From Phoenix dactylifera (Eukaryota; Streptophyta; Magnoliopsida; Arecales; Arecaceae): a stretch of DNA of 64,000 nucleotides. Location: positions 248,001 to 312,000 of the forward strand of contig NW_024067782.1 in assembly GCF_009389715.1 (NCBI RefSeq). The letters are read 5' to 3'. The notes under the pieces were generated by a model. It did no database searches. It had not been told where the DNA came from and worked only from the letters and a program-made list of their open reading frames with translations. Position 1 is the first letter of the stretch. Each line of letters starts with the position of its first letter. Below, one piece after another: positions 7,788-46,000 of this stretch. Made by a program: the position numbers and the translations under genes.

Positions 7788-9525
7788 TTTCTCCGCCTCT
7801 CTGTGGCTATGATCTCCCGGACTCTCTTTGTGGAACTTGTGGACTTGGATCCGAATGGTTGTTTTCGGCGATTTAACGGTCGTTACAACAGTTTTGGGTT
7901 CCGTCCGCCATAAGTTGCGTTTTGCAGAAACGAGGAAATGCCGCCAAGGTTACTCCGCTCGTTTATCACCTATGACATTGTCTTATTATGCGTGAATAAA
8001 GATCCCCCAGTATGTCCGAAAACCTTGTGGACTCATCTGCTTCGCCTATGTATATATAATTTTGGCATATTTAGTTGACCAAATATGACTATTTCAGAGT
8101 AGATTATATTTGGTTGAACATCTTTTTTTTTCTGAAAAAGTTATGTAAAATATCTATTATACTCTTAATAAAGAAAGAGATTTTGGCTAAAAAGTAGTTT
8201 TGAAAAAAAAAGTATTACAATTTCCAATCAGTTTCTATGTTTCTTATTAATTTTCTTTTTTTTATAGAAATCTTATTTTCATAGGAATGCTATTTTCTTA
8301 TCTCTTTTCTTTGAAAACTTCAATGAAACAAGAAGCAATTGACCATATTTTTCTCCTTCTTTTCCCGCGAACTAAACTAATCCTTTATTCTTTTTTGTTA
8401 ACGAAGGCCCTTCTATCTACATGATTTCGAGGGATGCCGTCTGTCCATAGCTCCCCATCTATCTCTCTTCTTTCTTCTCCTTCCATAGTTCCCATCCCCA
8501 AGCGATCAACTGGCCACAATTTGAATACTAACGAACATCATGTTCTGAAAACTATTTATTAATATTGTTGGAGATATGCATTGGGTCATGTGCTATATAT
8601 TAAAGGATATTATGAAAAACTATATATCGATAGTTTGATGCTACTAGAGATATATATTAGATCATTATTGCATCTATATCGAAGAAGCTTATGGTATATA
8701 TAAAAAAATTGTTAAGGGTATATTGGCTTTACATAAATGATGCATCGCTGAACTCCAAGTTCCATATTTGCAAAGGCATGCAAAAATGAGAAAGAGACTC
8801 ATCATCGTCCCTAGCAATTGGCAAGATTCGGAGGGGGAAAAAAAAAAAGGGATACGACAGAAGAGACTCTGAGGAGGATATGGTGGCTGCTGCAGACGGA
8901 CGGATGGTGAAGGTCACGACGGAGAGAGTGGAAGATCAAAGAAGACAGAAGCTACAAATGGACTTGAAAAGAAAGAGACCGAGATCCTTTCACATATTTT
9001 CCCCCCCTTTTTCGAGGCATAACGTAGATGGAAGGAACTCCGTTGGTAGGGCTTCCATTCCTCTTGGTCTCTTTAATTTCAACTTCAAGACCTGTGCAGA
9101 TCGGTACGTGGTGAAAGATAAAAGAAACTCTAGGCGATCTCTTCCGGTGCACTCAACCAAAGAACTTTTGTTCAAAATATTCATTATGTTAAGAGGATCG
9201 GAGTTCGAACTCAGAATCTCTGCTCTGATACCATATTAAAATTACCATTTATCCCAAAAACTAAGTAGTCGAGCTTCGACTTATAAATAAATTATCTTTA
9301 CTTATTTTTAAAGCTTTACCTAGCGATCTTCACAATTCCGAGCCCAAACACATAGAATATGACAAATCTCCCATTTGCAGAGGCGCAGCTTTCTGAGCTC
9401 ACCTAGTCCTGCCAATGGAAGACTTCGGACCAAGGGCGTGATGGTTGCACCTTGCCACCCTCAGACCGACAGGAAGAGCGATGTAGGACAATCTAGGGTT
9501 GGTTTCCCACACGCAAGCATGTCTG
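7788..9525. other. Intergenic: methyltransferase upstream region and no clear gene
   Basis: Upstream flank of the minus-strand methyltransferase gene. The short open frames near 8729-9239 show no recognisable domain. At about 9219-9230 the string GCTCTGATACCA is the complement of an initiator-tRNA-Met primer-binding site, so a scrap of an old retroelement leader may lie here. Nothing else is supported. Confidence 0.4.
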
Positions 9526-9530
9526 AAAAT
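9526..9530. repeat. Target site duplication AAAAT, left copy
   Basis: AAAAT directly precedes the TGTCACG terminus and recurs at 18969-18973 directly after the mirrored terminus CGTGACA. A 5-bp duplication is normal for Ty3/gypsy integration. Confidence 0.9.
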
Positions 9531-12424
9531 TGTCACGCCCCGGATCCGGATCCGTGACACGGCCGTGCTATTGCCGACTATCGCCCACATTAGCACGCAG
9601 CATCATACAGGGGTAACAGGTAGCCAAAAAGGATTCATCCTTATATATATATTAAAAGTTTGCAGTACAACCTTCAAGTTTGAAACCAAAAATACAGAAC
9701 TTCTATGCTATTCAAATGTACAGAAGTATATAAGCTTCTCCAAAAATACGAAGCTCTGTAACAAAATAAAAACATATCTGATGGCGATCACTGGTGAGGA
9801 TCTGAAAGAAAACGAAACATAAACAGATGTGAGCTACACGGCTCAGTAAGTAATCCTGCATAATCCTACCGGATCAACCAGTAGACTAAACATGTAAATC
9901 AGGGTTTTGAGAAGCTGACATGCATGTTTATCTAATAATCATCCTGGCATAATAAGTATGCAATTTAAACAAAGCAGTAGTGCAAATCACAAAATTTTCA
10001 TATTATATGCATATGAAACCGTGCCCCCCGGCATGCCGTGGTCCTTTTACTCTCGGATGCTACTGCGAAGTCAGACTCGGCCACTGGCGGGGCCAGCTCA
10101 GTTACTATTCAGCCACTGGCGGGGCAAGCTCAGTTACTATTCAGCCACTGGCGGGGCAGGCCCAATTCCAATTCAGCCACTGGCGGGGCAGGCTCAGTTA
10201 CTATTCAGCCACTGGCGGGGCAGCTCAGTTACTATTCAGCCATTGGCGGGGCAGCTCAGTTACTATTCAGCCACTGGCGGCTCAGTCATTCTCAGTAGCA
10301 TCTTTGAGCCCATTATAGTGCCTCTGGGCTAGCTAAGACTTTATAAACTTACATGCATGATTATAATATCAGTATCATCATGTTGCATACATAGCCATAG
10401 CTTCTGGGATCATTAAAGTTACTTATGCATTGTAACATATCATGTATGAAACATATATACTTAAAATAAATGCTTAGGAAACATTAATAACATAACATGA
10501 TCCATAACAGGATTAGGACAGGTTACTTACAGTGATTCGTTTTCTCCCAAGTTTCTTACGTCCTGGTGACGGATCCTGAGTCACCTAAAATCACATTATA
10601 ATGAGCATATTATTTCCTTTTACTTGTTTGGATTCTACCCGAAATTTAGCCCAAGTCTAATGTGTTCATATTGGAGCCTTGATTGGGTCCATATAGTTTA
10701 ATTGGCCTTCTAATTGGTCATTAGGCTTAATCCCAAGTTTAATTTGGGTTTAATTTTGGTTAAATTTATAGTCTGGCTTGTCCAGACTTAGCCCAATTTG
10801 ATTGGGCTCGGGTTTAGTCAAATTTGGCTAAACCCTTTCCCCCTTTTTTTTTCTCTTTTTCTTTTTCTTTTTCTTTTTCTTTTTCTTTTTCTTTTTCTTT
10901 GGGCTTAACGGGTTGCGGGTTCGGATTCGGATCCGACCCGCGAACCCGTTATCAGGTTTTCTTCCCCCCTTCCAGAGGCTTCCGCCTCTTCATCTCCCGC
11001 TTTCCTCTCTCTCCTCTCTTTTCTCCTTCGTCTCCACCGAAACCCACGCCTCCGGCCGGTCCTCCGGCCCCCTCCTTCTCCTCCGGCCAGATCTGTGGCC
11101 TTCTCCCTCTCGGTCACTCCCTCTCCTTCTCTCTCTCTTTCTCTTTCTTTCTTCTTTGTTTTCGCCGAGACCCTAGCCTCCGGCCGAGCCCTCGGCTTTC
11201 TTCTTCTCCTCCGGCCGGATCTACGGCCTCCTCTCTCTCTCCTTTCCTCCCTTGCTCTCTCTTTCTTCTTTTTTTTTTTTCTTTATTTTCACCGAAACCC
11301 TGACTTCCGGCCCACCGAAACCCTCCTCTTCTTCCTTTTTCTTCCCTTGCAGGCGGCCGGGGAGACGAGGCTCCCCCCGATCTACCAACCGAGGTGGAGT
11401 TTCCCCCCCGGAGCGCCGGCGGAAGGGAAGGCCAGCCCTTCCTCCCTCCGAATTAATGCCGGAGAGGGGAAGGGCTCGGAGATGGGTCGGGATCCGGCTA
11501 TAAACGAGAGCCTCCACCCGCTCCGTCCACGGCAAGGCATGGCCGGAGGGGATGAAGCCTCAAGGTCCGGTGAGTTCTTTTTTTTTTTTTTTTTTCTTTC
11601 TTCTTTTTCTTTTCTTCGGTCCTTCCTTCCGGCACCACCACCCCTTGCCGGAGAAGAGGTGGTGGTCCGGCCGGGGCTGGCGGCCCTGTGGCCGCCTCTG
11701 TTGTCGTCCCGGCCAGATATGGCGGCCTGGGTTGCCCCCCCCCCGAACCCCAAGGTACCCGCGGCCGAGGCCGCGGTGTCCGGTTCGTCAACAGGCCGAA
11801 CCCGGTTGGGTTCGGTCCGGATGGTCGCGGCCTGTGAGTCCGGCCCGACCCAGGGATTGTGGGTTTTTCTCCCTCTCCTGTGCCGGCCTCCTCCCCTCTA
11901 TGTCCCTGTTGACACAGAGGGGAAGAGCACCCCACAGAGGGGTTTCTCCATGCTTTATAATTTTATTAACAGGGAGTCTATACCTGGTTTTAGTCGGGTG
12001 TAGTCGGGCAGTGCTTCCTCCCTGGTAGTCCCCCCTTCTTCAGAGCTTCAGGGCTCCTTGGCCTTAGGTTCCAGGGCTTCGGCTCCCTCTCTCTTTCTCT
12101 CGTTCGGTGTTTAGGGGGGTCTGTGATTTGGGGTTGCCGGCAGAGGCTTAAATATTTGTTTAGAGGATGAAACCCCCCTCTGAGAGGTCCCATCCTCTCC
12201 TTTCCTCCATACTTCGGGACTGGCCGCCGCCCCCCCTTGTCTCCGGCGCGCCGGCATCGGCTGCCAGCAGGGGGTGCGGTAACCCCTCCCTGTCGGTCTT
12301 ATCCCTTCGTTTTTTTTTTTTTATTCCTGATAATAATTATGCTGGCTACAGTGAAATTTGGGCCCAACCCTTAACTGGGCCTATTTCTTATTGGGCCTAG
12401 TAGGTTGTGGGCCCGGACATTACA
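9531..12424 (-). repeat. 3' LTR of the chromovirus, about 2.9 kb
   Basis: On the minus strand it runs from TGTAATGTCC to GGCGTGACA. The inner boundary abuts a polypurine tract and the outer boundary abuts the AAAAT duplication. Long LTRs of 2-4 kb are usual in Del/Tekay elements. It contains a minisatellite (10076-10290), a (CTTTTT)n run (about 10855-10900) and pyrimidine-rich GC-rich blocks (10960-11650). These blocks give long but meaningless open frames. Confidence 0.9.
10076..10290. repeat. Minisatellite in LTR, about 32-bp unit, seven units
   Basis: Units have the form GCCACTGGCGGGGC, then AGCTCAGTTACTATTCA, with one variant unit reading CCAATTCCAATTCA. The second LTR copy (17581-17820) has eight units and the inverted fragment (18215-18425) has seven. 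Confidence 0.95.
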
Positions 12425-15400
12425 TCCTTCCCCCCTTAAATAAATTTCGTCCTCGAAATTAAACATACCTCGGTTCTCGAAGAGCTGAGGGTAGCGTTGT
12501 CGCATCTCTTCCTCCAATTCCCAGGTAGCTTCCCTTTCAGTGTGGTTGGTCCACTGGACTTTAACGTAGGGAATGGTGCGCCTTCGGAGAATTTGCTCTT
12601 TTCTGTCTATGATGCGCAGGGGAGCCTCCTCATAGGTTAAATCTTTATTTAATTGCAGAGGCTCATGTGGTACCACATGGCTGGGATCCGGAACGTACCT
12701 CCGTAACAAAGAGACGTGAAAGACGTTGTGTACGCCTGATAGCTCTGAAGGTAGGGCCAATTTGTAGGCAACTTTGCCTATTCTAGCAAGAACCTCAAAT
12801 GGGCCAATGTAGCGAGGACTTAATTTGCCGTGTCTTCCGAATCGGGTAATACCCTTTGATGGTGAAATTTTTAGGAAGACAAAGTTCCCCTCCAAAAATT
12901 CCAAGGCCCTTCTTCCTCTGTCAGCCCATCTTTTCTGTCTATCCTGGGCAGCCTGAAGCCTTTGCTTAATTAGTAGTACCTTGTCTCTGGTGTGCTGGGC
13001 CAGTTCGGGGCCTAGCATTTTCCGCTCCCCGACATCATCCCAGTGTAAGGGGGATCGGCATCTTCTCCCATAGAGAGCTTCGTATGGGGCCATCTGGATA
13101 CTGGAATGGTAGCTATTGTTATAAGCAAATTCCACCAGTGGTATGTGACTATCCCAGTTTCCACCTAGGTCCACAGTGCAAGCCCTCAGCATGTCTTCCA
13201 GAGTTTGGATTGTCCGCTCTGACTGGCCGTCAGTCTGGGGGTGGTATGCTGTACTGAGCCTCAGTCCGGTACCCATGGCCTTCTGAAAGCTTTCCCAGAA
13301 TCTGGACACGAATCGGGGGTCACGATCAGAAATGATACTCACTGGTACTCCGTGCAGGCGTACAATCTCATCGATGTATAATTGGGCCAGCTTGTCTAAA
13401 GGAGTACCAATTCTGAATGGCAGAAAATGAGCTGATTTTGTAAGGCGATCAACAATCACCCACACTGCATCATTCTTTCTCACCGTTTTGGGGAGTCCTG
13501 TAACAAAATCCATCGTGATGTGCTCCCACTTCCATTCAGGAATTTCTATTGGTTCCAGCAACCCTGCTGGCCTCTGGTGCTCTGCTTTTACTAGCTGACA
13601 GGTCAAGCATCGGGCCACAAACTCAGCTATTTCTCTCTTCATCCCCTTCCACCAGTAATGTTCCCGAAGGTCCCGGTACATTTTAGTACTGCCTGGATGA
13701 ATAGAGAAACGGGATTGGTGGGCTTCTTCCATGATTTCCCTTTTTAGGTCAACATTTGCCGGTACACACAGTCGGTGGCCAAACCTTAGAGTGCCATCTG
13801 GGTGCATTTGGAGTTCGGGTCGCAACCCTTTCTCCACTTCATCCTTGAGCTGGCAAATGTGCTCATCAGACTGCTGGGCAACCTTTATTCTATCGATCAA
13901 GGTTGGTTGTATACTCAAGGCGGCCAGCAAAATTTTTGTAGTTTGGGTAACCACCTCAACCTGTATTTTATCGAGATCCTTCTGAATCTGTGGTTGAGTG
14001 GTGAGTAAAGCGGCGGAGCTTATAACTGACTTTCTGCTTAGGGCATCCGCCACCACGTTGGCCTTTCCTGGGTGGTATTTAATACTCAGGTCATAATCCT
14101 TCAAGAGTTCCAACCACCTTCTTTGCCTCATATTCAATTCCTTCTGGGTGAATATATACTTCAGGCTCTTGTGGTCGGTGTACACATCACAGTGTTCGCC
14201 ATACAAATAATGTCTCCAAAGTTTCAAGGCGAACACTACTGCGGCCAACTCTAGGTCATGTGTCGGGTAGTTCTGTTCATAGGGTTTCAGCTGTCTCGAG
14301 GCATAGGCTACCACCTTGCCATCTTGCATCAGCACACAGCCTAGCCCGTTCTTGGAAGCATCACTGTAGATGGTAAATTCTCCAGTTAAGGACGGTAATG
14401 TCAAAATTGGGGCAGAAACTAACCTTTGTTTAAGCTCCTGGAAGCTCCTCTCACACTTGCCGTCCCAGATAAACTTGGCCCGTTTCTTAGTCAACTGGGT
14501 CAAGGGGGTAGCTATTTTGGAGAACCCTTCCGCAAATCGCCGGTAATACCCGGCTAATCCCAAAAAGCTTCTTATTTCCTTGGCGTTGGTGGGACGAGGC
14601 CAATCCACCACCGCTTCTATCTTCTTGGGGTCCACTGACACTCCTTCCTTGGAGATTATATGGCCGAGGAACGCCACACTGTCCAGCCAGAACTCACATT
14701 TGTTCAGCTTGGCGTACAGCCTCTTCTCTCGAAGGATTTGTAGCACCACCCTCAAATGGTCTTCATGTTCCTTCCGGCTCTTTGAGTATATCAAAATGTC
14801 ATCGATAAAAACTACCACGAACTGATCCAAATATTGTTTAAAGACTCTGTTCATCAAGTCCATAAATGCAGCCGGGGCATTGGTCAATCCAAAAGGCATA
14901 ACCAGAAATTCATAATGCCCATATCTGGTTCGAAATGCAGTTTTTGGCACATCCTCAGATTTGATCTTCAGCTGATGGTAGCCTGACCTCAAATCTATCT
15001 TGGAGAAGACTTGGGCGCCTTGCAGCTGATCAAACAGGTCATCGATCCGAGGTAGGGGATATTTGTTCTTTATGGTTATCTTGTTCAATTCCCGGTAATC
15101 GATGCATAGCCGCATACTCCCGTCTTTCTTTTTCACAAATAGGACAGGAGCTCCCCATGGCGACGCACTGGGCTGGATGAACTTTTTATCCAGGAGTTCT
15201 TGTAGTTGTACCTTCAATTCCCTTAACTCAGCAGGGGCCATCCGGTAAGGAGCCTTGGAGACTGGCCCCTCTCCTGGTGCGAGGTCGATTGTGAATTCGA
15301 TCTCTCGGTCTGGGGGTAATCCTGGTAATTCCTCCGGAAAGACATCCGGATATTCTCTGACTACTGGAATATCTTCCAGTTTGGTCTCTTTCTGGATATC

Positions 15401-15900
15401 CATTACACAGGCCAGATAGGCCATACACCCTTTTCTCACAGCCTTTCCAGCTTTCAAGGCAGAAATAAAGTGTAGTGTAGGAGCGTCTTGAAGGGGTATA
15501 TCGCCCTGAAAGAAAAATTCTTGCTCCCCAGGTATCCGAAATACCACCTTCTTGTGGTAACAATCAATGTGGGCGTGATACTGTGACATCCAGTCCATGC
15601 CCAAGATAATATCAAAGTTTTGCATGTCAAGCTGTAAAAGATTTGTCTCTAATTCTTTTTCCCTATCTGAATTATGCAATTTTTATATTTAGTGTCAACA
15701 ATTGCGGTTTTCTGAAGGGGTGTAGCAACATGCCATGGTTCCACTAATTTCTCAGATGTGCTATGTAATTGTCTGGAAAAGCTAACCGACACGAAAGAAT
15801 GCGTAGAACCAGAATCAAATAGAATGAGGGCAGGAACCAAGTTGACCAGAAGTGTACCTGTTGCCACTTGATCGCTAGCACTGGCATCCTGTCGAGTCAG
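12371..15900 (-). CDS. Chromovirus pol region: RT, RNase H, integrase, chromodomain
   Basis: Domains in order on the minus strand: end of protease (IILGMDW); reverse transcriptase, about 15150-14640, with catalytic FIDD; RNase H, about 14390-14030, with YSDAS and TDHKS; integrase zinc finger ([10 protein letters not shown] to CLTC) and core, about 13725-13000, with MDF, SDRD and the HPQTDGQSE motif; and a C-terminal chromodomain, about 12640-12480 ([17 protein letters not shown]), which defines chromoviruses and is thought to guide integration to marked chromatin. The reading frame runs past the polypurine tract and ends inside the 3' LTR. This is a fossil copy with nearly complete domains. 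Confidence 0.9.
12425..12437 (-). other. Polypurine tract of the chromovirus
   Basis: On the minus strand AAGGGGGGAAGGA lies immediately before the LTR start TGTAATG. This is the plus-strand primer site of LTR elements. Confidence 0.85.
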
Positions 15901-16872
15901 TGCGAAAACCCGAGGGTTACCCCTCGATCTCTGGTCCTCTGGTGCAGTATGTCTGGGCTCGTCCTTCTTTCGGCTAGGGCAGTTGCGGGCGATGTGTCCT
16001 GTCTGCCCGCAAGAATAACAAGCTCCGCTCTTCTTCATGCAGGTACCCCTGTGGTTTCCGCCACAGGTGGGGCAGCCTCTGCTCTGTCTCTTCTTGGGCA
16101 CAGACCCCTTGTTGCCTCCAGCCCCACTACTCGGTGCTCCTGATGACCGGGTCCTCTTCAGGTCCTCCCTCTCTCTCCCGGACCGTATCAGGTCAGCCTC
16201 AACCTTCAAGGCTCGGTCCAGTACATCTTTGTAGCTTGAGAATAAATGGGAGGATATTCGGGACCGAATCCCGTACCTCAATCCCTGCTCAAACCGGTTC
16301 ACCTTACTTCTCTCATCCTCCATGAACTGGGGGCAAAATCGTCCCAGTTCGTTAAATTTATTGGCGTACTCCAGAACGGACATCTGGTCAGTCTGGGTTA
16401 GTGTCAAAAACTCATTCTGCTTCGCCAGGTGCACTGAGTCCGGAAAGTATTGATTGTAAAACATCCTCTTAAAGTCCCTCCAGGTGAGTCTGTCAACGGC
16501 ATAAGCCGTCTCCATGGCCGTCCACCAGTATTCGGCGTTTCCTGTCAGCATAGAGGTCGCCAGCCGGACTGTCACCTCATCAGGAAAGTGGAGGGCTCGG
16601 AACATCTTCTCTATCTCCCGGATCCATGTTTCAGCCGCCATAGGGTCAGACCCACCCTCAAAGGTCGGGGGGTTCAGTCGGCGGAACCTCTCATAGCAGG
16701 AGTCTGCTGATGGCATAGCGGCCAACTGCATCATCTGCTGCTGTTGCAGCACTTGCGCCATAAGCTGATACACTCCGGCTAGGCCTGCCTGACCTGCTGC
16801 AGACCGTGGAGTATCCGGGGAAACTGACCGCTCGCTGGGCTCCGGGGAGGGTGGTCTCCGGTCGTCATCCAT
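15900..16872 (-). CDS. Chromovirus gag region and start of protease
   Basis: Gag on the minus strand from ATG at 16872. It has a Ser/Pro-rich N-terminus, the retrotransposon gag core (PPTFEGGSDPMAAETWIREI; LTWRDFKRMFYNQYFPDS) and a CCHC zinc knuckle (CYSCGQTGHIARNC). The protease motif [11 protein letters not shown] follows a little downstream. In this lineage gag and pol are normally one polyprotein. Family assignment is firm. Confidence 0.9.
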
Positions 16873-17017
16873 ATCTTCCTAATGATCACCTAGCAGTCAA
16901 AAATTTTTAAAGTGAGGTTATGATAAACTAGCATATTATAACATTTTCTATGACGGTGACATTCTTAACTATCCTTTTCCTCAGGCATTTTATGGTTATT
17001 CTATTGTTTAACCTAAG

Positions 17018-17029
17018 GCTCTGATACCA
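17018..17029 (-). other. Primer-binding site, initiator tRNA-Met
   Basis: On the minus strand TGGTATCAGAGC lies a few bases inside the end of the 5' LTR. This is the standard primer site complementary to the 3' end of plant initiator tRNA-Met, and it fixes the element's orientation as minus. Confidence 0.93.
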
Positions 17030-17034
17030 CTAGA

Positions 17035-18139
17035 TGTCACGCCCCGGATCCGGATCCGTGACACGGCCGTGCTATTGCCGACTATCGCCCACATTAGCAC
17101 GCAGCCTCATACAGGGGTAACAGGTAGCCAAAAAGGATTCATCCTTATATATATATTAAAAGTTTGCAGTACAACCTTCAAGTTTGAAACCAAAAATACA
17201 GAACTTCTATGCTATTCAAATGTACAGAAGTATATAAGCTTCTCCAAAAATACGAAGCTGTGTAACAAAATAAAAACATATCTGATGGCGATCACTGGTG
17301 AGGATCTGAAAGAAAACGAAACATAAACAGATGTGAGCTACACGGCTCAGTAAGTAATCCTGCATAATCCTACCGGATCAACCAGTAGACTAAACATGTA
17401 AATCAGGGTTTTGAGAAGCTGACATGCATGTTTATCTAATAATCATCCTGGCATAATAAGTATGCAATTTAAACAAAGCAGTAGTGCAAATCACAAAATT
17501 TTCATATTATATGCACATGAAACCGTGCCCCCCGGCATGCCGTGGTCCTTTTACTCTCGGATGCTACTGCGAAGTCAGACTCGGCCACTGGCGGGGCCAG
17601 CTCAGTTACTATTCAGCCACTGGCGGGGCAAGCTCAGTTACTATTCAGCCACTGGCGGGGCAGGCCCAATTCCAATTCAGCCACTGGCGGGGCAGGCCCA
17701 GTTACTATTCAGCCACTGGCGGGGCAGGCCCAGTTACTATTCAGCCACTGGCGGGGCAGGCTCAGTTACTATTCAGCCACTGGCGGGGCAGCTCAGTTAC
17801 TATTCAGCCACTGGCGGCTCAGTCATTCTCAGTAGCATCTTTGAGCCCATTGTAGTGCCTCTGGGCTAGCTAAGACTTTATAAACTTACATGCATGATTA
17901 TAATATCAGTATCATCATGTTGCATACATAGCCATAGCTTCTGGGATCATTAAAGTTACTTATGCATTGTAACATATCATGTATGAAACATATATACTTA
18001 AAATAAATGCTTAGGGAACAGTAATAACATAACATGATCCATAACAGGATTAGGACAGGTTACTTACAGTGATTCGTTTTCTCCCAAGTTTCTTACGTCC
18101 TGGTGACGGATCCTGAGTCACCTAAAATCACATTATAAT
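17035..18139 (-). repeat. 5' LTR, only its last 1.1 kb
   Basis: Direct copy of 9531-10602 of the other LTR, with eight instead of seven minisatellite units. It stops at the 8-mer ATTATAAT (18132-18139), where the sequence turns into the inverted fragment. The first 1.8 kb of the LTR is absent at this end. Confidence 0.92.
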
Positions 18140-18968
18140 CATGCATGTAAGTTTATAAAGTCTTAGCTAGCCCAGAGGCACTATAATGGGCTCAAAGATG
18201 CTACTGAGAATGACTGAGCCGCCAGTGGCTGAATAGTAACTGAGCTGCCCCGCCAGTGGCTGAATAGTAACTGAGCTGCCCCGCCAGTGGCTGAATAGTA
18301 ACTGAGCCTGCCCCGCCAGTGGCTGAATTGGAATTGGGCCTGCCCCGCCAGTGGCTGAATAGTAACTGAGCTTGCCCCGCCAGTGGCTGAATAGTAACTG
18401 AGCTGGCCCCGCCAGTGGCCGAGTCTAACTTCGCAGTAGCATCCGAGAGTAAAAGGACCACGGCATGCCGGGGGGCACGGTTTCATATGCATATAATATG
18501 AAAATTTTGTGATTTGCACTACTGCTTTGTTTAAATTGCATACTTATTATGCCAGGATGATTATTAGATAAACATGCATGTCAGCTTCTCAAAACCCTGA
18601 TTTACATGTTTAGTCTACTGGTTGATCCGGTAGGATTATGCAGGATTACTTACTGAGCCGTGTAGCTCACATCTGTTTATGTTTCGTTTTCTTTCAGATC
18701 CTCACCAGTGATCGCCATCAGATATGTTTTTATTTTGTTACAGAGCTTCGTATTTTTGGAGAAGCTTATATACTTCTGTACATTTAAATAGCATAGAAGT
18801 TCTGTATTTTTGGTTTCAAACTTGAAGGTTGTACTGCAAACTTTTAATATATATATAAGGATGAATCCTTTTTGGCTACCTGTTACCCATGTATGAGGCT
18901 GCGTGCTAATGTGGGCGATAGTCGGCAATAGCACGGCCGTGTCACGGATCCGGATCCGGGGCGTGACA
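18132..18968 (+). repeat. Inverted LTR fragment forming the right terminus
   Basis: Reverse complement of 9531-10367, ending CGTGACA at 18968 and followed by the AAAAT duplication. With 17035-17904 it forms an inverted repeat with arms of about 0.85 kb and a 227-bp spacer (17905-18131). It shares the 8-mer ATTATAAT with the preceding LTR piece. Confidence 0.92.
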
Positions 18969-18973
18969 AAAAT
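18969..18973. repeat. Target site duplication AAAAT, right copy
   Basis: AAAAT directly after the mirrored terminus. It matches 9526-9530. Confidence 0.9.
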
Positions 18974-29169: not shown

Positions 29170-32100
29170 TTGCTCCTCCATCCCTTTCCAAAGCTCTCTC
29201 CACCGGCAATCTCTCGCTGCCTCCAAACCGCCGCCAAATCTCTCCTGGAAGAGCAAAACGCTGCGACCGCCGCCGTCCCCCCCTCATTCCTCCGCCCCCG
29301 CCCACCTTTCCCCGCCGCCTCCCATTCTCCTCCCATCTCCGGCGCCCAACTCACCAAGTCGGGCCTCCCCTCTGCCGTCCCGTCCTACCGCTTTGGTCCA
29401 ATCCAGCTCCCCAACAGCGCCCGCAAGGTCTTCGACGTAATCCCCCACTCGGACCTTGTCTCATGGTCTGCCCCTCATATCCAACTACGTCCGCAGCGGC
29501 CTCACCCGCGAGGCCCTCCTGGCCTTCAAAAAGATGCGATCTTTAGGCATCCGGAGCCACGAGTTCGCCCTCCGGACCCTCCTCAAGGCCTGCTCGGACT
29601 TCACTGCTGGCACCCAAACCCATGCTGTCGCGATCGTCGCTGCGTTCGACTCGACGTCTATGTCGCCAACACCCTCGTTGTAATGTACGCTGGCTTCTGT
29701 CACGCCCCGGACCCGGATCCGTGACACGGCCGTGCTATTGCCGACTATCGCCCACAGTAGCACGCAGCCTCATACAGGGGTAACAGGTAGCCAAAAGGAT
29801 TCAAACTTATATATATATATTGCCGACTATCTTTTTCTTTCCCTTTTTCTTTCCTTTTCTTCTCTTCTCCTTTTTCTTTTCTTCTCCTTCCCGAAGCTTC
29901 CTCTCCTCCCTTCTTCTTCTTCACCGAGACCCCCTATCCCACTGAAGAAGGAGGGAATGGGGCTCCGGCCGACTGCAGCCCCCTGCCGAGAGCCAGCAGC
30001 GACTGCGTCCGAGAACCGTGTACGGAGTCCCTCCTCTATTTTATTTTGGAACAGGAAAAATAAAGAAGAAACAGGATGATCAGGGAGCTTACCTGGGGAT
30101 GAACTACGGTGCCTCCTGCTCCGATGCTTCAGCCATCGTCCTAGAAAGTCTTTGGGGAGGAAGGAGAGCGGTAAGGCTCTTTTAGCTGGGGTGAGGTGTC
30201 ACCCCCAGCTTTCTCCTGTGAAGGATCTAACACCTGGGCCTTCCTCTGATCCCCACCTGGCCCTAGTCAAATCCAAGCATAAGGCAGGAGGTGGCAGCCA
30301 TCAAACGGGCTGCCAACCATGGGCCCAGTTAGCCTATTAGATGTCATGGCCCAATGTTCAAATATGGGCCCAAAAAGAAGTAATTGGGCCCAGTTGATTT
30401 TTGGGCCCAGGTATTACAGCTTCGGCCTCCTCTCGGACTCCCGAAAGCTGTTCGACGGCATTGCCGGCCAGAATGTGGCTTCATGGACTGCAATGCTTGC
30501 GGGGTATGTTAAGAATGATCAGTGTGAGGAGGCAGTTGGGTTGTTTAGTGAGATGGTGATGAGTGGAATCTCGTATGTTTTGAATGCTTGCACGGGCTCG
30601 CAGGATTTGCGCCACGGGAGAGAAGTTCATGGTTACGTCACTAGGCTTCGCTATGACTCAGGCCCATTTACCGTCAATGCACTGGTGGATATGTTTGCAA
30701 AGTTAGAAGATATCGAGGCCGCAGCTACAGTTTTTAAAGGGATATTTCGGCCTGATATTGTTTCATGGAATGCTTTCATTGCTGGGTGTGTTCTTTGTGG
30801 ACATGATAACTGGGCTTTGAGGTTGTTTTTGGATTTGAAGCACTGTGGAATGCTTCCAAATGTGTTCAATTTGTCTAAGGCTTGTGCTGGGATGGGGAAT
30901 GTTATATCTGGGACAGCAGATACATAGTACTCTGATCAAGGCTGGCTCTGATTCAGACATGTTCGTGGGTGTTGCGATTGTTGATATGTATGCCTAATGT
31001 GATCGTCTAGGACATGCGAGGAAAGCCTTTTAACTTGATCCCTGTGCAGGATTTGATTTCGCGGAATGCTTTGATCTCGGGATGTTTAGGAGGCTTTGAT
31101 TTTCTTCTCTAAGATGAGGATGGAGGGTTTGAGCATTAATCTGACCAGCAGTTCTTAAATCTATTGCAAGCTTTCAGGCTCCTAATTGGAGTAAAGAAGT
31201 TCATGCCACTTGCTTTCAATGCAGAATTTTTATCAGATCCGCATGTTGTAAATGGTGATGCATATGGGAAGTGTAATTGCATAGAGGAGGCAGCAGGAGT
31301 TTTCCGGGAATGCCCATTTGGAGATGTGGTGGCCTTCACATCCATTATCACAGCTTACTCGTCTGAGTGGGCAATGGGAGGAAGCTATGAAACTTTTCTG
31401 TGAGATGCTAAACCAGGAGCTTAAGCCAGGTTCATTTGCCTTAAGTAGCCTGCTCAATGCTTGTGCTGGTTTATCTGCTTATTGAGCAAGAGAAACAAAT
31501 ACATGTTCATGTGCTGAAGATGGGGTTCATGTCTGATGTTTTTTCTGGGAATGCACTTGTCAGCATGTATGCGGTATGTCAAGTGTGGGGAGCATCGAGA
31601 ATGCATCCTTAGCTTTTTCTGAGATACCTGAGAGGGGGATTGTCTCTTGGTCTACGATGATTGGAGGGCTTGGACAACATGGGCACGGGAAGGAGGCATT
31701 AGATTTGTTCCAAAGGATGCTTGAAGAGGGTGTTGCTCTGAACCATATAACCTTGACTTGTGTTCTTTGTGCTTGTAACATGCTGGTCTCATTCATGAGG
31801 CATAACGATATTTTGAATCAATGGTAGAGCTGTTTGGCATTGAACGGAATCACGAGCATTATGCCTGCATGGTTGGCCTTCTTGGCCATGCTGGAAGACC
31901 AAACGAGGCAATGGAGCTTGTAGATAGCATCCCTTTTGAAGCCAATGCTTCAGTATGGGTAGCACTCCTAAGGTCATCCAAAGTCCATAGGAATATAGAA
32001 TTGGGTAGGAAAGCAGATGAGATGCTCTTTGCTCTGGAGCCAGATAAGTCAGGAACCCATGCGCTTCTCACTCATATATATGCTTTGGCTGGTATGTGGG

Positions 32101-34274: not shown

Positions 34275-35056
34275 TGTTGCTGTGGTCCAAACCGAGAACG
34301 ATTGGCACTGCGGTGTGAACGGGGTTCCGTCTGAGTTGTCTTGGTTGGTGTTGGTTGCGCTCCAGCTTCCGCCAAGAAACCTGCAAACAAGCCTTGCACC
34401 ACCAGGGTGGTGATGGCCCTCCGACGGTCAAGTCAGAGGAGATTGGAGGAGGAGGAGAGGTGATAATCGCAAGTAAGAGAGTGCTCTGGGAGATATTGCT
34501 CCACCTCCCCCCTTTCTCCCCCCAGCCGCATATATACCTGGCTTGGGGGTCTCTCAGGGGGGTTTCGTTATCGTGGGGCACGATGGTGTGGCCATGACAT
34601 GGCCGTTACAGGGCGTCGTGGAGCAGCACCGGGTACGGCCACGTCAGGGCATAGTGGGGCTTCCGCTTTGTACGGCTGATGCAGGAGATCGTGGAGCCAG
34701 CATCGGATACAGCCGTTGCAGGGAGTAGTGGAGCAGGAGGCCGCGGCGTGCCTCTGGGGAATAGCCTGTCGTTATCAAGAGATCTCCGACTCGGGGTCGG
34801 AGCGCTGGATCAAAGGGCAGCCGACTCGGGGTCGGGCTGCGGAGCCGAGGATGTCCGACTCGGGGTCGGATTGCTGGATCAAAGGGCCAGCCGACTCGGG
34901 GTCGGGCTGCGAAGCCGAGGATGTCCGACTCGGGGTCGGGCTGCGGGGCCGAGGATGTCCGACTCGGGTCGGATTGCTGGATCAAAAGGGCAGCCGTAGT
35001 CTTCCTGGGCGCGCGTGCCGGTCACGTGGGGCATGGCGGCTTATTCCCCCGTAACA
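34275..35056 (-). repeat. 3' LTR of the Retand-like element
   Basis: 782 bp, TG...CA ends. The interior holds short subrepeats around GACTCGGGGTCGG and GAGCCGAGGATGTCC (34780-34985), whose copy arrangement differs from that of the other LTR. Confidence 0.92.
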
Positions 35057-35597
35057 GTAGCCCCCCCACTTCCGAGACTGGAACCAGAAGGGGAACAGGT
35101 GAAGGGAGTGATGTTTCGGGATTGCCGCCGTTCCTCGGAGAGGCGCGCGCGCTTCGAGCTCCCCGCCTTTTAATGGCGTATGGCGGTTATTGCTGACCCT
35201 GGCAGTCTGAGGATTTCGGCCGGACACTCCTTCCTTAATGGTGTCGATTCGCCTTTGGGGCGCGAGCGACCCTTCGGCAGCCAGGCGTCCTCTAGCGTCA
35301 TCGAGGCGTCCACTTGCCTTTCCGCCTATTTAATTCGCGGGGCCTTTCCCCGTCCGTCTCTTCTTTACAGATATTTTCCAAGTTTCCCCTTTGCCTGCTG
35401 TTGCTGCCTGTCGGACTGTTCACTTGTTTCTCCTTTGGCGCTCTCCGGAGCCGTTTTACCTCTTTTCCGGTGAGTTTTTCCCATTCTTCTACTTAGGGCT
35501 CTCCATAACTTTCTCCTCTTATACTAGTGTACTCCAGTCGCTCGCGGTCTTTCCCCTTCCTGTCCCGTCCTGACCGTAGGTTTATTGGCCATTAGGA

Positions 35598-37978
35598 ATG
35601 GGCGAAGTGAGAGCAGACCAAATTAAGTCGGAGCTGGTCGCCACACGACTTAGACAGACTTGTGGCTCGGTACCACTTCCCGAGGCCTGCAACGCCACGC
35701 TCCCGGGGGCCTGAGGAGAGGATGTCCCATCCTCCTCCGGGGAAGATCGCCATCAATGAGGGCATTCTCCAGGCCGGGTTCCGCTTTCCCCATTCGAACT
35801 TGGTCATGCAGGTGCTACGGGGTTTTAAGAGTGGCCACGACGCAACTGGTGCCGAACTCGTGGCGGGCCCTGACGGTCTTCCAGGTTCTCTGCCGTATGC
35901 ACGAGATTCCCCGCCACCCCTGAATGTTTTTTGGGAGTTCTACAGCCTGAGCGGCCCACCCCCAGGAACAAAGGGTGGTGGTGCTTCGCAGCCGCGGCGA
36001 GGATGCGGCCTTGTCAAGGAGGCTCCCTACCTCCATTCACAAATGGAAGGAGCGCTTCTTTTTTGTTGATGCAGATCCCTCTTGGGAAATCAGGGCGACC
36101 TGGGAGACCCGATGAAGTCTCCGATCGGCCTATCGAGACTGTCAAGGGAGGAGTCCGATGGCTTGGCCGCCTTGAAGGGGTTGGTTGCCGAGGGCCAGCT
36201 CCCCCGGTGGCCCGCTTAATTTCCGAGGATACTTTGGTGAATGTCGGTCTGAGCTCGGTCCCCACCGACCGTGAGTCCGCCACCGATTCTTTCTTGACTT
36301 TTTCCCTTCTTTCGTCCCGTTCTTTCCCTTTGGTTCTCTCGTCTCCCGACCTATCCCGTCCTTTTTGCAGAAGATCGACGACGTCATGGCGGTCGGCTGA
36401 AGACAAAGCTGTTGGTTAGGGCGTCCCTGCTGGAGCAGCCCCAGAGGAGGAACGAGCTCTTCCCGAGCGGGGCCCCACCCCGGCGAAGAAGTCGTAAGGA
36501 GGTGCCCTCGGACGCCGACCGACGAGTCCGGGCCCCACCGATCAGGGAGTCGTGGGCACGGACCGGCAGCTGACGCTGTATCAACCCTCCGGTGGTAGAT
36601 TGCGCTACTTCCGGAGTATCATCCGAGCCTGCCCGAGACGGACGGGTCGGGCGTGATCGGTCCCCGACCCGGCCCTTCGACTCGGTCGGGCTCCTGATGA
36701 CTCGAGGAGGGACGCGCCGAGGCCCCGACCGAGCGGGACCCTATCAATTCCTGGGGTGACCCCCGCCCCGAGCGCGATCGGCCGGACTCTTCCCCAGGCG
36801 ATGGATAGGGGTAAGGCTGCAGAACACCCGTCCGGCTCTGGGGAGAAATCGGGGTCTGCCTTCACTACCGATGGCGCCCGATAATCTCATCGAAACAGTG
36901 CTGCTGGAGAAGGACCGTCGGCGGGTCCGAGAGTTGGAGGTCTCTGACGTTGGGGCTGCCAGCTGTGTCTGTCTCATGTCGGTGAGTGTTCTTCTGGCCG
37001 CTTTTCACCATTTATTGGCTCTGTTGTTCTCCGCCTGACTCCCTTATTTTTTCCTATTTCTTAGCTCGCCCAGTACATGATCGTCTGGAGGAGTGCTACA
37101 GGAACAGGCGGGGCTTTCTGGCGAAGGCCGAGGACCGGTGAAAGCAGTGGAAAAGGGAGGCCAGGCTGTGGCAGGCAGGACGACCGGGGACTTCGAGGCG
37201 AGGCTCCGGGAGGCCGAAGAGCGGGCACTCGGCTTTGCTGCCCTCGAGAAGCAACTGTTGGAGGCTCAGGAGCAGGCTCAAGGTTGCCTCGGGTCTCGAG
37301 GGCGAGGTCAAGAAGGCGGATGAGCGGGCCGAGAAGCAGTCCCGGAAGGCTGCCGACTACCGGGAGAGGTGGGAGAAGGCCCAGCGGTCAGCCGACAACG
37401 CCCGCAACCGAATCCGGTCTCTTGAAGCTAAGCTGGGCGAATTGGAGTCGGCCTTGGAGAAGTCCCGTGCGAGCGATCAGGAGCTTCATTCGCGCCTGAC
37501 GGAGGCTGAGGCTGCTCGCATTGCTGCCGAAGCGAAGCACAAGGAGGCTCGGGCTGAGCTGCTGAGGGTCTCCACCGAGGCGGAAGGCCGGATTGTGGCG
37601 AAGGTCTTGGAGGCGAAAGCCCAGATTATGGAGCGGGCAGAGGCGGCGCTGGCCGAGAGGAGTGCGGAAATCGGGCGTCAGGCGGTAGAGGCTTATCGCC
37701 AGTCCGCCGAGTTCGCTCATGATATGTCGGAGGCAGTACAGACCTATCGTCAGTCCGACGAGTTTGTCCGTGACGCGTCGGACGCGGGGGCCGAAGCCTT
37801 TATCTTAGGCTTCGAGGAGGGCCTGGCAAGGGTGTCGGCTAAGTACCCCGAAGTTGACCTGAGCGAGATTTCCCTTCTCGACTCCTCTCCGGCGCCATTG
37901 CCTGCTGGTTCTCCTGCTGCTTCCCTACCTCCTGCGGACGAGCCCGACGTTCCCGACCCGGGAGTTCCTCCAAGCTGA
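35598..37978 (+). pseudogene. Antisense gene of the Retand-like element (Transposase_28 type)
   Basis: It lies on the plus strand, opposite to gag-pol. Recognisable phrases (EERMSHPPPGKIAINEGILQ; GCGLVKEAPYLHS; ISEDTLVNVGLSSVPTD) match the plant family annotated in Pfam as putative gypsy-type transposon (PF04195), the known antisense ORF of Tat-lineage elements. The 3' part (37235-37978) is a long charged coiled coil rich in Glu, Ala and Arg (AEKQSRKAADYRERWEKAQR and on) with a Pro-rich tail. GTGAGT...CAG intervals at about 36270-36370 and 36980-37064 fit the splicing reported for such ORFs. The copy is broken in several places. Its function in the element is unknown. Confidence 0.7.
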
Positions 37979-38159
37979 CCTCTTGTACCTTTCGTTGTCT
38001 TCTCTTTTTTTTTTGTATACCGGGGTTTTGCCAAATTGTATGGGCCTCGGCCCTGAAACAATGAAATTAATGCAAGTTGAATGTTTCTTCATCTCGCCTT
38101 CGTCCTTCTTTTTCTTTTAACTCTCGGTAGCGTCTTGCTGACTCCTGGCTCCCGAAATT

Positions 38160-38620
38160 CTTCCGGCGCTAGCCAGGCATCCGAGGTTAGGCTCAGAACT
38201 CTTCCGCTAAGCCAGGCATCCGAGGGTTAGGCCTCAGGAAATTCTTCCGGCGCTAAGCCAGGCATCCGAGGGTTAGGCCTCAGGAAATTCTTCCGGCGCT
38301 AAGCCAGGCATCCGAGGGTTAGGCCTCAGGAAACTCTTCCGGCGCTAAGCCAGGCATCCGAGGGTTAGGCCTCAGGAAACTCTTCCGGCGCTAAGCCAGG
38401 CATCCGAGGGTTAGGCCTCAGGAAACTCTTCCGGCGCTAAGCCAGGCATCCGAGGGTTAGGCCTCAGGAAATTCTTCCGGCGCTAAGCCAGGCATCCGAG
38501 GGTTAGGGCCTCCAGGAAATTCTTCCGGCGCTAAGCCAGGCATCCGAGGGTTAGGCCTCAGGAAATTCTTCCGGCCCGGCTCAAAGGCCAGGGCATCCGA
38601 GGGTTAGGCCTCAGGAAATT
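38160..38620. repeat. 46-bp tandem array, about ten units
   Basis: Unit phrases: GGCGCTAAGCCAGGCATCCG, then AGGGTTAGGCCTCAGGAA. Units are highly alike, with a few one-base differences. It lies between the antisense gene and the 124-bp array. Confidence 0.93.
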
Positions 38621-40450
38621 CCACTCGTTGGTCGACCAAGGCTGGCGCATGCCGAGGCAACTGGTCGGGGCTTCAGGCTAGTCTGCTCCCGGGATGGTCA
38701 TCGGGTTAGCCTGGCATCCGAGGGCCGAGCCTCGGGACCTTCCACTCGTTGGTCGGCCAAGGCTGGCGCAAGCCGAGGCGACCGGTCGGGGCTTCCGGCT
38801 AGTCTGCTCCCGGGATGATCATCGGGCTAGCCAGGCATCCGAGGGCCGTCAAGCCTCAGGAAATTCCGCTCGTTGGTCGGCCAAGGCTGGCGCAAGCCGA
38901 GGCGACCGGTCGGGGCTTCAGGCTAGTCTGCTCCCGGGATGATCGTCGGGTTAGCCTGGCATCCGAGGGTTGTCAAGCCTCAGGAAATTCCGCTCGTTGG
39001 TCGGCCAAGGCTGGCGCAAGCCGAGGCGACCGGTCGGGGCTTCAGGCTAGTCTGCTCCCGGGATGATCGTCGGGTTAGCCTGGCATCCGAGGGTTGTCAA
39101 GCCTCAGGAAATTCCACTCGTTGGTCGGCCAAGGCTGGCGCAAGCCGAGGCGACCGGTCGGGGCTTCAGGCTAGTCTGCTCCCGGGATGATCGTCGGGTA
39201 GCCTGGCATCCGAGGGCCGAGCCTCGGACATTCCACTCGTTGGTCGGCCAAGGCTGGCGCAAGCCGAGGCGACCGGTCGGGGCTTCAGGCTAGTCTGCTC
39301 CCGGGATGATCGTCGGGTTAGCCTGGCATCCGAGGGCCGAGCCTCAGGACATTCCGCTCGTTGGTCGGCCAAGGCTGGCGCAAGCCGAGGCGACCGGTCG
39401 GGGCTTCAGGCTAGTCTGCTCCCGGGATGATCGTCGGGTTAGCCTGGCATCCGAGGGTTGTCAAGCCTCGGACATTCCGCTCGTTGGTCGGCCAAGGCTG
39501 GCGCAAGCCGAGGCGACCGGTCGGGGCTTCAGGCTAGTCTGCTCCCGGGATGATCATCGGGTTAGCCTGGCATCCGAGGGCCGAGCCTCGGGACATTCCG
39601 CTCGTTGGTCGGCCAAGGCTGGCGCAAGCCGAGGCGACCGGTCGGGGCTTCAGGCTAGTCTGCTCCCGGGATGATCATCGGGTTAGCCTGGCATCCGAGG
39701 GCCGAGCCTCGGGACATTCCGCTCGTTGGTCGGCCAAGGCTGGCGCAAGCCGAGGCGACCGGTCGGGGCTTCCGGCTAGTCTGCTCCCGGGATGATCATC
39801 GGGCTAGCCAGGCATCCGAGGGCCGAGCCTCGGGACATTCCACTCGTTGGTCGGCCAAGGCTGGCGCAAGCCGAGGCGACCGGTCGGGGCTTCAGGCTAG
39901 TCTGCTCCCGGGATGATCGTCGGGTTAGCCTGGCATCCGAGGGGTCAAGCCTCGGGACATTCCGCTCGTTGGTCGGCCAAGGCTGGCGCAAGCCGAGGCG
40001 ACCGGTCGGGGCTTCAGGCTAGTCTGCTCCCGGGATGATCGTCGGGTTAGCCTGGCATCCGAGGGGCCGAGCCTCGGGACATTCCGCTCGTTGGTCGGCC
40101 AAGGCTGGCGCAAGCCGAGGCGACCGGTCGGGGCTTCCGGCTAGTCTGCTCCCGGGATGATCATCGGGCTAGCCAGGCATCCGAGGGCCGAGCCTCGGGA
40201 CATTCCACTCGTTGGTCGGCCAAGGCTGGCGCAAGCCGAGGCGACCGGTCGGGGCTTCCGGCTAGTCTGCTCCCGGGATGATCATCGGGCTAGCCAGGCA
40301 TCCGAGGGCCGAGCCTCGGACATTCACCGTTGTCGGCCAAGGCTGGCGCAAGCCGAGGGCGACCGGTCGGGGCTCCGGCTAGTCTGCTCCGGGAATGATC
40401 ATCGGGCTAGCCAGGCATCCGAGGGGCGAGCCTCGGGGAAATTCGCTCGC
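38620..40450. repeat. 121-124-bp tandem array, about fifteen units
   Basis: Unit phrases in order: CGTTGGTCGGCCAAGGCTGG, CGACCGGTCGGGGCTTC, CTGCTCCCGGGATGATC, then TTAGCCTGGCATCCGAGGG. The last phrase is the core of the 46-bp unit. The final two or three units (40300-40450) are more divergent. The array gives repeated short open frames in all units, and these are not genes. Confidence 0.93.
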
Positions 40451-40864
40451 TGGTCGTAGGCGCTTGTCGCTCGCTTGCCCGACGGGGGTTTCTCCGTGGC
40501 CAGCCGCGATCATGTTTCTCCTTTTCTCTAAGCGTTGCCTGGGGGAACACGAGAAGGGCATAAACGCTAATTAATGCGTTACCTGGGAATCGGATCGCCA
40601 GCTGCTGCTTGCGAGGAGTGTTGATTGAGCGGCCGCGATACGCGGGTTCTTCGAGAGGGATACGGCCTGGGCCGCGAGCGGAGATATGTGGACCTAGGGG
40701 TACATGACACCCGGATTGTCCTTGCGCAAAGAATGCGGTTTAAGGAGAATGACGCTTAGGAAAATCGCGGGGAGATACGCGTCGGGAGCCGGAACGGCTC
40801 CGGTTTCAATGCGCCTGCATTTATTGGAGCCACCCGCATCGGAACGACCAGGGGGCGCAGTTTG

Positions 40865-40873
40865 GCTATAAAT
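40865..40873 (+). promoter_or_regulatory. TATA box on the antisense strand of the Retand-like element
   Basis: CTATAAATA on the plus strand between the tandem array and integrase. It is followed by about 640 bp that end in AATTATTGAAATGAAAAG near 41490, which resembles a plant polyadenylation region. A second plus-strand transcript is possible. No convincing protein lies in it. Confidence 0.4.
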
Positions 40874-41639
40874 ACAGGTGCAGGTACGATGGAGTTTGCC
40901 AAGCCGGAGCTGTTCAGGTTGCCATGGATCGCGGACCTCCTCCTTGGGCAATAGACTGAGAGACTCCTGTTGAAGGAAAGGGGAGACGCTCCCCTTGCGA
41001 CTTCAGCCAACTAGCCGTTTCATCTGGGATCAACAAGGGAGGGTCTTCCCGGCGGAACTCCGCTCTAGGCGTTTTCATCCGGGGATCACATCTCCCCTCC
41101 TTGAAGTTCAGCCTCCCGATCGAGCTCTGCACCAGACGGCTCAGTCCGGGACCAGCGCCTCCATATGCTCTTCCCCCTCGTAATTCCTTCTCTTTCCTAC
41201 CACTGGGGAGGATGGGAATATCCTTTGAGCGGCGTTCCCCTGGGGGCAGCGGGAGCTTTCTTCTGCGCGGGCTCCTCGTCTTTTTGGTGAAGTGCTGGAA
41301 TGGCGCCTCCGGTTTAGAAGCACCCACTTCCCGGTGGGATTGCAGCTGCTTTGGGTTGAGGGTTTGGGATCCTCGGTCCTCAGCTCCACGGATTCTCCAC
41401 CTCTTCTTTGCTTTCTTTACTCCCTAATTCCCCTCTGGGAATTCCTTGTAATCACACACGAGCACGCCATTGTAACCAGAAATTATTGAAATGAAAAGTG
41501 TATGCACCTTTTTCAAATTGTCTTTCTGGCCTTGTTGTTCTACTGGTAATACATCCGCAGGTTAGCGGAATTCCAGCCCCTTGGAATTTCTCGGCCATCT
41601 AGGGCTTCCAACCTGGTAGGAGCCAGGTCGGTTTACCCA

Positions 41640-44600: not shown

Positions 44601-46000
44601 AGAAATGACCTCCGGGTCGATCCCAGGTACATCGGCCGCCGACCAGGCAAACACATCAGCATTGGCTCGGAGGAATTCCACTAACCGGAGCCGAGCTTCC
44701 AAGTCGAGGTTGGCACCGACCCGGACCGTGCGGTCCGGGCGGCCTTCTTTGAGGGGAACTTCGATTACGCCCTCGGCAGGCTCCCCGTGCCGCAAGGCCA
44801 CTTCGTCTCTGGCGTCAAGGGACTCGACGCTTAGGGCTTCCATGGGCTTCTTCCCTTTGAGAGTTGCTAGGAAACACTGCCGTGCGGTTGGTTGGTCACC
44901 TCGGACCTCTCCAATCCCGGCCGCCGTGGGGAACCGCATGAGCAAATGGTAGGTAGAAACCACCGCGCGAAGGGCGTTCAGTCCGGGTCGTCCGAGGATA
45001 GCGTTGTAGGCCGAGGGGACACGGACGACCAAGAACCCGAGTCGCACCGTGGCTTCTGCGGGTGCAACGCCCGCAGTCACAGGCAGCTCAATGACACCTT
45101 CGGCCGAGATAGCGTCTCCAGTGAATCCTATGAGGGGGGTGGATGTTTTGTGCAACAATTGTCGGGACAAGCTCATCTTTTGGAAGGCCTCGTAATACAA
45201 AATATCAGCTGAGCTTCCACTATCCACAAGAACACGCCTTACATCATAGTTCACCATAGTGAGAGAGATCACCATGGCGTCATCGTGGGGAGTCTGAACC
45301 CCCTTTACATCTTCATCACAAAAAGTGATTACATTTCCGACCCGCTGCCTCTTCGCGACGGCCACTCCTGATGCTTCCGCCGAGCCCCCTGCGTTCCTCA
45401 CGGGCCGAGAGCAGCCCCCAGTGATGGTGTGGATCACTCCCGCAACGGGTCGATTCTGCTCCCGAGGCTCCTGAGGGGCCGGGTCGGCCGGACGCGGGTC
45501 TGCCGGGGGACGTCGGTCGTTTACATATCGACCGAGACGCCCTCGGCGAATGAGAGCCTCGATCTCGTCCCGAAGCTGGAAGCAGTCTTCGGTATCGTGG
45601 CCGTGGTCTCGGTGGTACTCACAGTACGCCCGAGAAGGCCTCCTCCCAGGGATCTTCTTCATCTGCCTCGGGACCGGGAGGTCCTCCCGCCCCTTGACCT
45701 CCATGAGGATCTGGGCCCGGGGGGCCAGGAGTGGGGTGTACCGGTTGAAGCGTCGGTGCGGAGAACGAGGGCGTGTGGCGCCGTGGTTCCTTGCTGGTGA
45801 CGGGCTTCTGCGCCGGCGTTGAGGCGTCGGGCTCCTCCTTTGGGGTGCCTCTTTTCGCCTTTCTTCCCGGGCTTTAGAGGGGCCTCGGCGGCCTCCTTGT
45901 TCCGGTGGGAGGCTGCCTCCTCGGCGTCTGCATACTGGTTTGCCCGAGATAACAGCTCCGGGAAGCTCCGCGGCAGGCGTTTGTCCAGGGAGAAGGTGAG
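41640..46000 (-). pseudogene. Retand-like pol region: PR, RT, RNase H, second RNase H, integrase
   Basis: In transcript order: protease (VLVDSGSSADILYYEAF, about 45240); RT with MCVDYTDLNKACPKDSFP and catalytic YVDDMLVKS (about 44410-44080); RNase H (about 43960-43330); a second RNase H with WTLHIDGSSNPEGGGAG and NNEAEYEAL (about 43280-42850), typical of the Tat branch; and integrase with WGMDILGPFP and LISDNGRQFD (about 42535-41900). It is broken at about half a dozen points, and all domains are still readable. Confidence 0.85.

Follow-up and report, generated by a model that had tools for sequence, protein, structure and literature searches.

A date palm chromovirus insertion with a U5 end at both borders and a matching target duplication

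Introduction

A normal plant Ty3/gypsy chromovirus (Metaviridae) encodes gag, protease, reverse transcriptase (RT), RNase H and an integrase zinc finger, SH3 domain and chromodomain, carries long terminal repeats (LTRs), a primer-binding site (PBS) and a polypurine tract (PPT), and is flanked by a 5-bp target duplication. To our knowledge, natural integration is taken to require one U3 and one U5 end. Here we describe a unit with all of these features, the chromodomain being weak, in a 64,000-nucleotide stretch of the Phoenix dactylifera genome (the window; contig NW_024067782.1, G000:C135:248001-312000 of a 773-Mb assembly with 2391 contigs). It differs from a normal chromovirus in that its 5' LTR is shortened and an inverted copy of LTR sequence is added, which leaves no outer U3 end.

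Rearranged unintegrated retroviral DNA has been the subject of earlier work. Minus-strand strong-stop DNA of HIV-1 self-primes and gives rise to aberrant cDNA, as stated in a passage of PMC4668388 citing Guo et al. 1997. A passage of PMC3623958 describes HIV-1 integrase complexes that hold two U5 duplexes in vitro; these are oligonucleotide complexes, in contrast to the natural insertion in the window. DIRS-1 retrotransposons, according to a passage of PMC5633606, have inverted LTRs as their normal state and a tyrosine recombinase. They share inverted terminal LTR sequence with the window unit, whereas the unit belongs to a family with an integrase in which inverted LTRs are exceptional. Among the titles, abstract openings and passages returned by a literature search, mostly outside subscription papers, there was no description of an integrated LTR retrotransposon with two U5 outer ends.

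Borders of the unit and its inverted arm

Read directly, the minus-oriented unit extends from 9531 to 18968; an earlier note, made from the letters of the window, gave 9526-18973 and so counted the duplications in. It starts with TGTCACG at 9531 and ends with CGTGACA at 18968, which makes both outer ends U5 ends as that note had claimed, and the clean AAAAT duplication it had described is exact on both sides. A chance match is improbable: AAAAT occupies 160 of 54500 window positions outside the element, where two random 5-mers agree with a probability of 0.0012. The unit thus has the 5-bp duplication of a normally integrated LTR retrotransposon and lacks its pairing of one U3 with one U5 outer end. 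No open frame or repeat visibly spans the insertion site in the flanks. The left flank carries a PBS-like word (CTCTGATACCAT at 9223-9234), possibly part of another small LTR element.

Starting correctly at 17035, the 5' LTR breaks off at 18139, which is LTR position 1823 of 2894, and sequence from LTR position 2058 onwards follows in the opposite orientation (Table 1). The two pieces overlap in ATTATAAT, which is its own reverse complement. Homology of at least 8 nt occurred in 123 of 400000 random inverted joins simulated within the LTR of the unit. The arm and its counterpart in the 3' LTR (18132-18968 and 9531-10367) are 99.4% identical. Compared with shuffled sequences, the strand on either side of the turn-back has a much more stable fold (z -6.6), as is expected of any inverted repeat. 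Bearing on the idea that the turn-back marks the 5' end of an RNA, none of the TATA-like words in the LTR lies about 30 bp upstream of LTR position 1823.

The outer ends of 14 relatives, picked for two or more LTRs listed in one orientation, served as controls. A U3 end was found in 13 of them, and 12 of these 13 show U3 and U5 ends with an exact 5-bp duplication, in line with the earlier note's premise that normal integration joins a U3 to a U5 end. The exceptions are the relative on C6, which has no matching duplication, and that at C8:13.3M, whose U3 end lies outside the fetched stretch. All 12 duplications differ from each other. The control did not include seven single-LTR places of the same list, of which that on C10 is a further unit with two U5 ends (see below). 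The window itself holds a control in a 721-bp LTR-like insertion of a related family (TGTAATACC...CGTGACA), which has normal U3 and U5 ends and shares its last 122 bp with the chromovirus unit (95%), and otherwise short stretches only. The left of the two PPR-like pieces beside it scores below the Pfam cut-off (22.5 vs 25 bits). Three related elements at different places (L044, L050 and L056), among them the one on C6 without a matching duplication, have the U5-side flank ATTAGTACTAAC in common; recombination between elements or duplication of the locus are possible reasons.

Probable common origin of the three LTR copies

A genome query with window positions 17700-18500 gave 122 matches, and among the 40 of 900 candidates scored only the unit matched the whole query. 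At three loci (L002, L009 and L015) the match extends 15 nt beyond the junction, yet the LTRs there continue in the normal direction, and all 28 other LTR loci run past LTR position 1823 in that direction. These 28 are the best-matching LTR copies, taken from 30 loci after exclusion of the unit's own L001 and L016; they are not independent insertions, because several come from the same element.

Compared with this set, the differences among the three copies of the unit are all private: two in the 3' LTR, four in the 5' LTR (and two more outside the arm) and three in the arm, in an alignment with a gap in two of the 28 copies at one column. None of the private bases of the 5' LTR is present in the 28 other copies, and no derived base is common to just two of the unit's three. 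One position near the U5 end is A in all three and C in 28 of the 28 others. In the 773-Mb genome, exact matches to the 50-mer with this A are found at three places, one each in the 3' LTR, 5' LTR and arm of the unit, while the 50-mer with C has 188. An A that the exact search finds only in the unit, together with otherwise private changes, argues that the arm was made with the LTRs and was not imported later from another element. Judged by these bases, the arm and the two LTRs most likely trace back to one molecule and have been accumulating changes for a similar time. The three copies differ by 0.60-0.84%, inside the range of 0.10-0.87% for 11 LTR pairs of relatives, some of which are neighbours in three-LTR runs.

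Such runs of three LTRs in one orientation, spaced about 7.4-10.6 kb apart, are found on C42 (L018/L017/L014), C11 at 6.3M (L027/L021/L020) and C14 (L004/L026/L007), as expected from unequal exchange between LTRs. Two small contigs, C2271 (L009) and C1207 (L010), share one insertion together with its U5-side flank, oriented oppositely, and are possibly two haplotypes or a duplicated locus.

Other insertions with two U5 ends

The earlier note had suggested searching the genome for family members with two U5 outer ends and 5-bp duplications. Pairs of U5 ends were read by eye among 100 of the 188 exact 50-mer places, so that the census is incomplete; within 15 kb, four neighbouring pairs face outwards and none inwards. 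Two further cases came to light among these places. The unit at C10:11236053-11244852 has the architecture of the window unit, with 3' LTR, interior, PBS, cut 5' LTR and arm, and is flanked by GTTAC on both sides. Its 5' LTR is cut at about LTR position 2558, the arm extends from position 1895 to the U5 end, and the junction has an 8-nt homology (GTAAGTAA). The loci compared for it cover the ends, the 5' side and part of the interior. Across about 1000 bp, the arm of this unit departs from its 3' LTR at two positions, and the four additional differing columns at the edge of the 5' LTR piece reflect a piece boundary six bases past the junction. A common origin of these copies rests on their near identity, because no base was seen that only they share.

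At C3:9967451-9969956 we found an LTR-only palindrome of 2506 bp that is self-inverse over its whole length at 98.4%, has U5 ends on both sides and an ACCTG duplication, and by eye leaves an unpaired centre of about two dozen nucleotides. An extra copy of the flank word lies just beyond the right duplication. At the level of the assembled sequence, at least three insertions with two U5 ends and matching duplications are thus established, the window unit counted. Their turn-back points differ, in keeping with separate origins. These data add three things to the earlier note: the recurrence itself, the microhomology where the LTR turns back, and the private base common to the three LTR copies.

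Two other rearranged copies were not counted. The element from C11:9831147 to about 9838145 (L067, L071) resembles the window unit in its head-to-head LTR pieces and perfect duplication (GAACC), with inverted interior and inverted LTR pieces. We rejected it as a U5-U5 copy, since it has U5 at the left and U3 at the right; it is possibly the product of an internal inversion or of autointegration. At C13:1419166-1419426 (L070), a 261-bp near-palindrome forms the 5' end of an element. The near-palindrome pairs a 122-bp arm with the 131 bp of 5' LTR that precede the PBS, both taken from the extreme end of the LTR (its last 122-131 bp), and turns back in a TA repeat. The element's left end is of the same kind as in the counted units, and its right end is absent from the fetched stretch, with no LTR match beyond the interior.

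A proposed turn-back during reverse transcription and its alternatives

We propose, with a probability of roughly 0.85, that the cDNA of the window unit was abnormal at its 5' end before integration, through a turn-back in reverse transcription, and that integrase then joined its two U5 ends. The growing DNA strand would have extended from the PBS, passed U5 and R and halted within the 5' LTR at LTR position 1823, where the 8 nt at its 3' end (ATTATAAT) could pair with their counterpart at LTR position 2058 of minus-strand LTR DNA. The switched strand would then have copied this DNA to its 5' tip, the U5 terminus at which reverse transcription starts, to yield a linear cDNA with a U5 end at each side. 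Integrase would have trimmed both ends to CA and joined them to target positions 5 bp apart, creating the AAAAT duplication.

We infer that the turn-back, a template switch or fold-back, occurred during reverse transcription, that minus-strand DNA was the template and that the ends were joined by the integrase of the element itself. The U5 tip is exactly where the arm stops in all three cases, the window unit, C10 and C3. A switch onto minus-strand LTR DNA copied to its end gives this terminus and needs no extra assumption, because minus-strand DNA starts there, beside the tRNA primer. The template was probably the 5' tip of minus-strand DNA, as a fold-back beside the PBS would copy PBS and interior, unlike what is seen in the window unit and on C10; it may have been the far end of the strand itself, or strong-stop DNA within the same particle. 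Self-priming of strong-stop or early minus-strand DNA would fit the palindrome on C3. It is here that the family comes nearest to the HIV-1 self-priming described in the passage of PMC4668388, with the difference that an aberrant viral product is reported there, whereas the products of this family are integrated in the genome with duplications. That an integrase complex takes two U5 tips is plausible, since the U3 and U5 tips of the family (TGTAATG vs TGTCACG) agree in 5 of 7 bases. The earlier note had already suggested that integrase used both U5 ends of a cDNA whose 5' LTR had its upstream part replaced by an inverted repeat, and the private base common to the three copies, the U3-plus-U5 rule in relatives and the two further U5-U5 loci support this.

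Several points weigh against our proposal. The scheme leaves synthesis of the arm's complementary strand unexplained. The repeat array of the 5' LTR reads 1-3-D-D-4-5-6, compared with 1-1-3-4-5-6 in the other two copies, which the simplest scheme does not predict. The array had hinted at a separate RNA as the source of the 5' LTR, distinct from that of 3' LTR and arm. We dropped this idea, because the 28 other copies contain none of the private bases of the 5' LTR and because 3 of the 11 LTR pairs from relatives also have arrays that differ in length by roughly one unit; the difference is probably due to slippage. The control gives no measure of how frequent U5-U5 insertions are, because the relatives were chosen for direct LTRs. 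The 50-mer search was exact, and a copy with the A plus another change in those 50 bases would escape it. The rearranged copy on C11 shows that other inversions arise in the same family. Finally, the sequence evidence is that of one assembly.

This last point, and the general knowledge that inverted repeats commonly cause misassembly, would favour an artefact of assembly or library such as a fold-back read or misjoined LTRs. However, the arm holds three bases of its own and is therefore no copy of either LTR, and the right border falls precisely on the CA, with the matching duplication directly beyond it. The C10 unit repeats the architecture with a different junction, C3 is a pure palindrome, and each has a duplication of its own, which makes an artefact scarcely credible. 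We judge just as remote that two elements of the family once lay side by side in opposite orientation and that a deletion fused the 5' LTR of one, cut midway, to the 3' LTR of its neighbour. Such a deletion would explain the head-to-head LTR pieces, and 8 nt of homology suit a microhomology-mediated deletion, but the flanking 5-mers would then match by chance, which happens only about 0.1-0.3% of the time, and the duplications of the 12 relatives all differ. This coincidence would have to be repeated at the two other loci, and the arm carries a base that the exact 50-mer search finds only in the window unit (3 places vs 188). A normal insertion altered later by inversion or gene conversion, which would have placed a U5 end at the right border, is improbable as well. 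The C11 relative with its inverted interior is a precedent for such rearrangement; its outer ends have remained U5 and U3, the outcome predicted for an inversion of the interior. In the window the event would have had to stop exactly at the LTR terminus although the two termini differ. Moreover, the arm shares no derived base with either LTR except the one common to all three.

A variant of our proposal retains the integration of two U5 ends and lets microhomology-mediated end-joining of two cDNAs in one particle, instead of a polymerase switch, build the molecule. Particles of retroelements carry two RNAs, and both resolved junctions, in the window unit and on C10, have 8 nt of homology. The tightly looped LTR-only palindrome on C3, however, looks self-primed, and joining alone gives no preference for arms that end at the U5 tip, even if integrase needs intact tips. 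We consider end-joining unlikely, with odds that overlap those of our main proposal.

Beyond the single unit, palindromic cDNA with two U5 ends could be a standing by-product of this chromovirus family. Fold-back or switching of the minus strand, copying to the U5 tip and acceptance by integrase would then produce a recurrent class of insertions, comprising full elements with a hairpin-forming 5' end and LTR-only palindromes. We regard the case for this broader reading as evenly poised. If it is true, U5-U5 copies could also give rise to hairpin RNA that acts against the family. Should transcription of such a copy start within its 5' LTR, its offspring would, under the standard scheme of reverse transcription, be free of the defect, because the intact 3' LTR supplies U3.

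These insertions in a plant genome point to an integrase that joins two U5 ends with a correct duplication, and they preserve products of unsuccessful reverse transcription that are normally lost. Because each insertion freezes its turn-back point and homology, a census could show at which points and at what frequency RT folds back in the living plant. U5-U5 copies could mislead annotation programs built to expect direct LTRs.

Class of the unit and other features of the window

Two long minus-strand frames carry the set from gag to chromodomain, and by this domain content the unit is a Ty3/gypsy chromovirus in minus orientation; from its long LTR we take it to be Tekay/Del-like. The order gag, protease, RT, RNase H and integrase is present, with the protease profile divided between the two frames and a Chromo match at the integrase C-terminus under the Pfam gathering score (19.6 vs 25.1 bits). 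Two direct LTRs, the 5' one incomplete, accompany PBS and PPT. For the integrase, the Pfam scan reported the zinc-binding domain and not the rve core in the window copy, and in the two long frames it found no tyrosine recombinase as a DIRS-like element would have. A protein search returned 7936 relatives, with at most 72% identity among the 120 matches listed, many of them from named plants. Three scans of viral contigs gave no match, nor did Rfam at gathering scores.

Table 1 Features of the unit and of the control insertion in the window.
Feature	Position	Strand	Basis or remark
Left target-site duplication, AAAAT	9526-9530	.	Direct reading
3' LTR, whole, 2894 bp; outer (left) end U5 TGTCACG, inner end TGTAATG	9531-12424	-	Same termini in relatives
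32-bp tandem repeat array in 3' LTR	10080-10280	.	Counterparts 17584-17817 and 18219-18419
pol frame, stop to stop: part of protease, RT, RNase H, integrase zinc finger, SH3_Tf2-1, weak Chromo	12371-15682	-	Pfam scan
PPT adjoining 3' LTR	12425-12435	-	Assigned by position
gag frame, stop to stop: gag, zinc knuckle, first part of protease	15649-16878	-	Pfam scan
PBS TGGTATCAGAGC, presumably initiator-Met type, 5 nt off 5' LTR end	17018-17029	-	Same word after U5 end of relatives' inner LTRs
Truncated 5' LTR, PBS-side 1105 bp: LTR positions 1823-2894 and enlarged repeat array	17035-18139	-	Sequence comparison
Turn-back junction, 8-nt palindromic microhomology ATTATAAT, common to joined LTR positions 1823 and 2058	18132-18139	.	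Sequence comparison
Inverted arm, LTR positions 2058-2894 (837 bp), ending at U5 terminus CGTGACA	18132-18968	+	Sequence comparison
Right target-site duplication, AAAAT	18969-18973	.	Direct reading
721-bp LTR-like insertion of related family, normal U3 and U5 ends, duplication GCTTC; control	29698-30418	-	Between two PPR-like coding pieces

A second gypsy-type element (34275-47835), with LTRs at 34275-35056 and 47062-47835, is inserted in an AT microsatellite. It has gag, RNase H and integrase frames on the minus strand and an internal 121-bp tandem array at 38592-40456.

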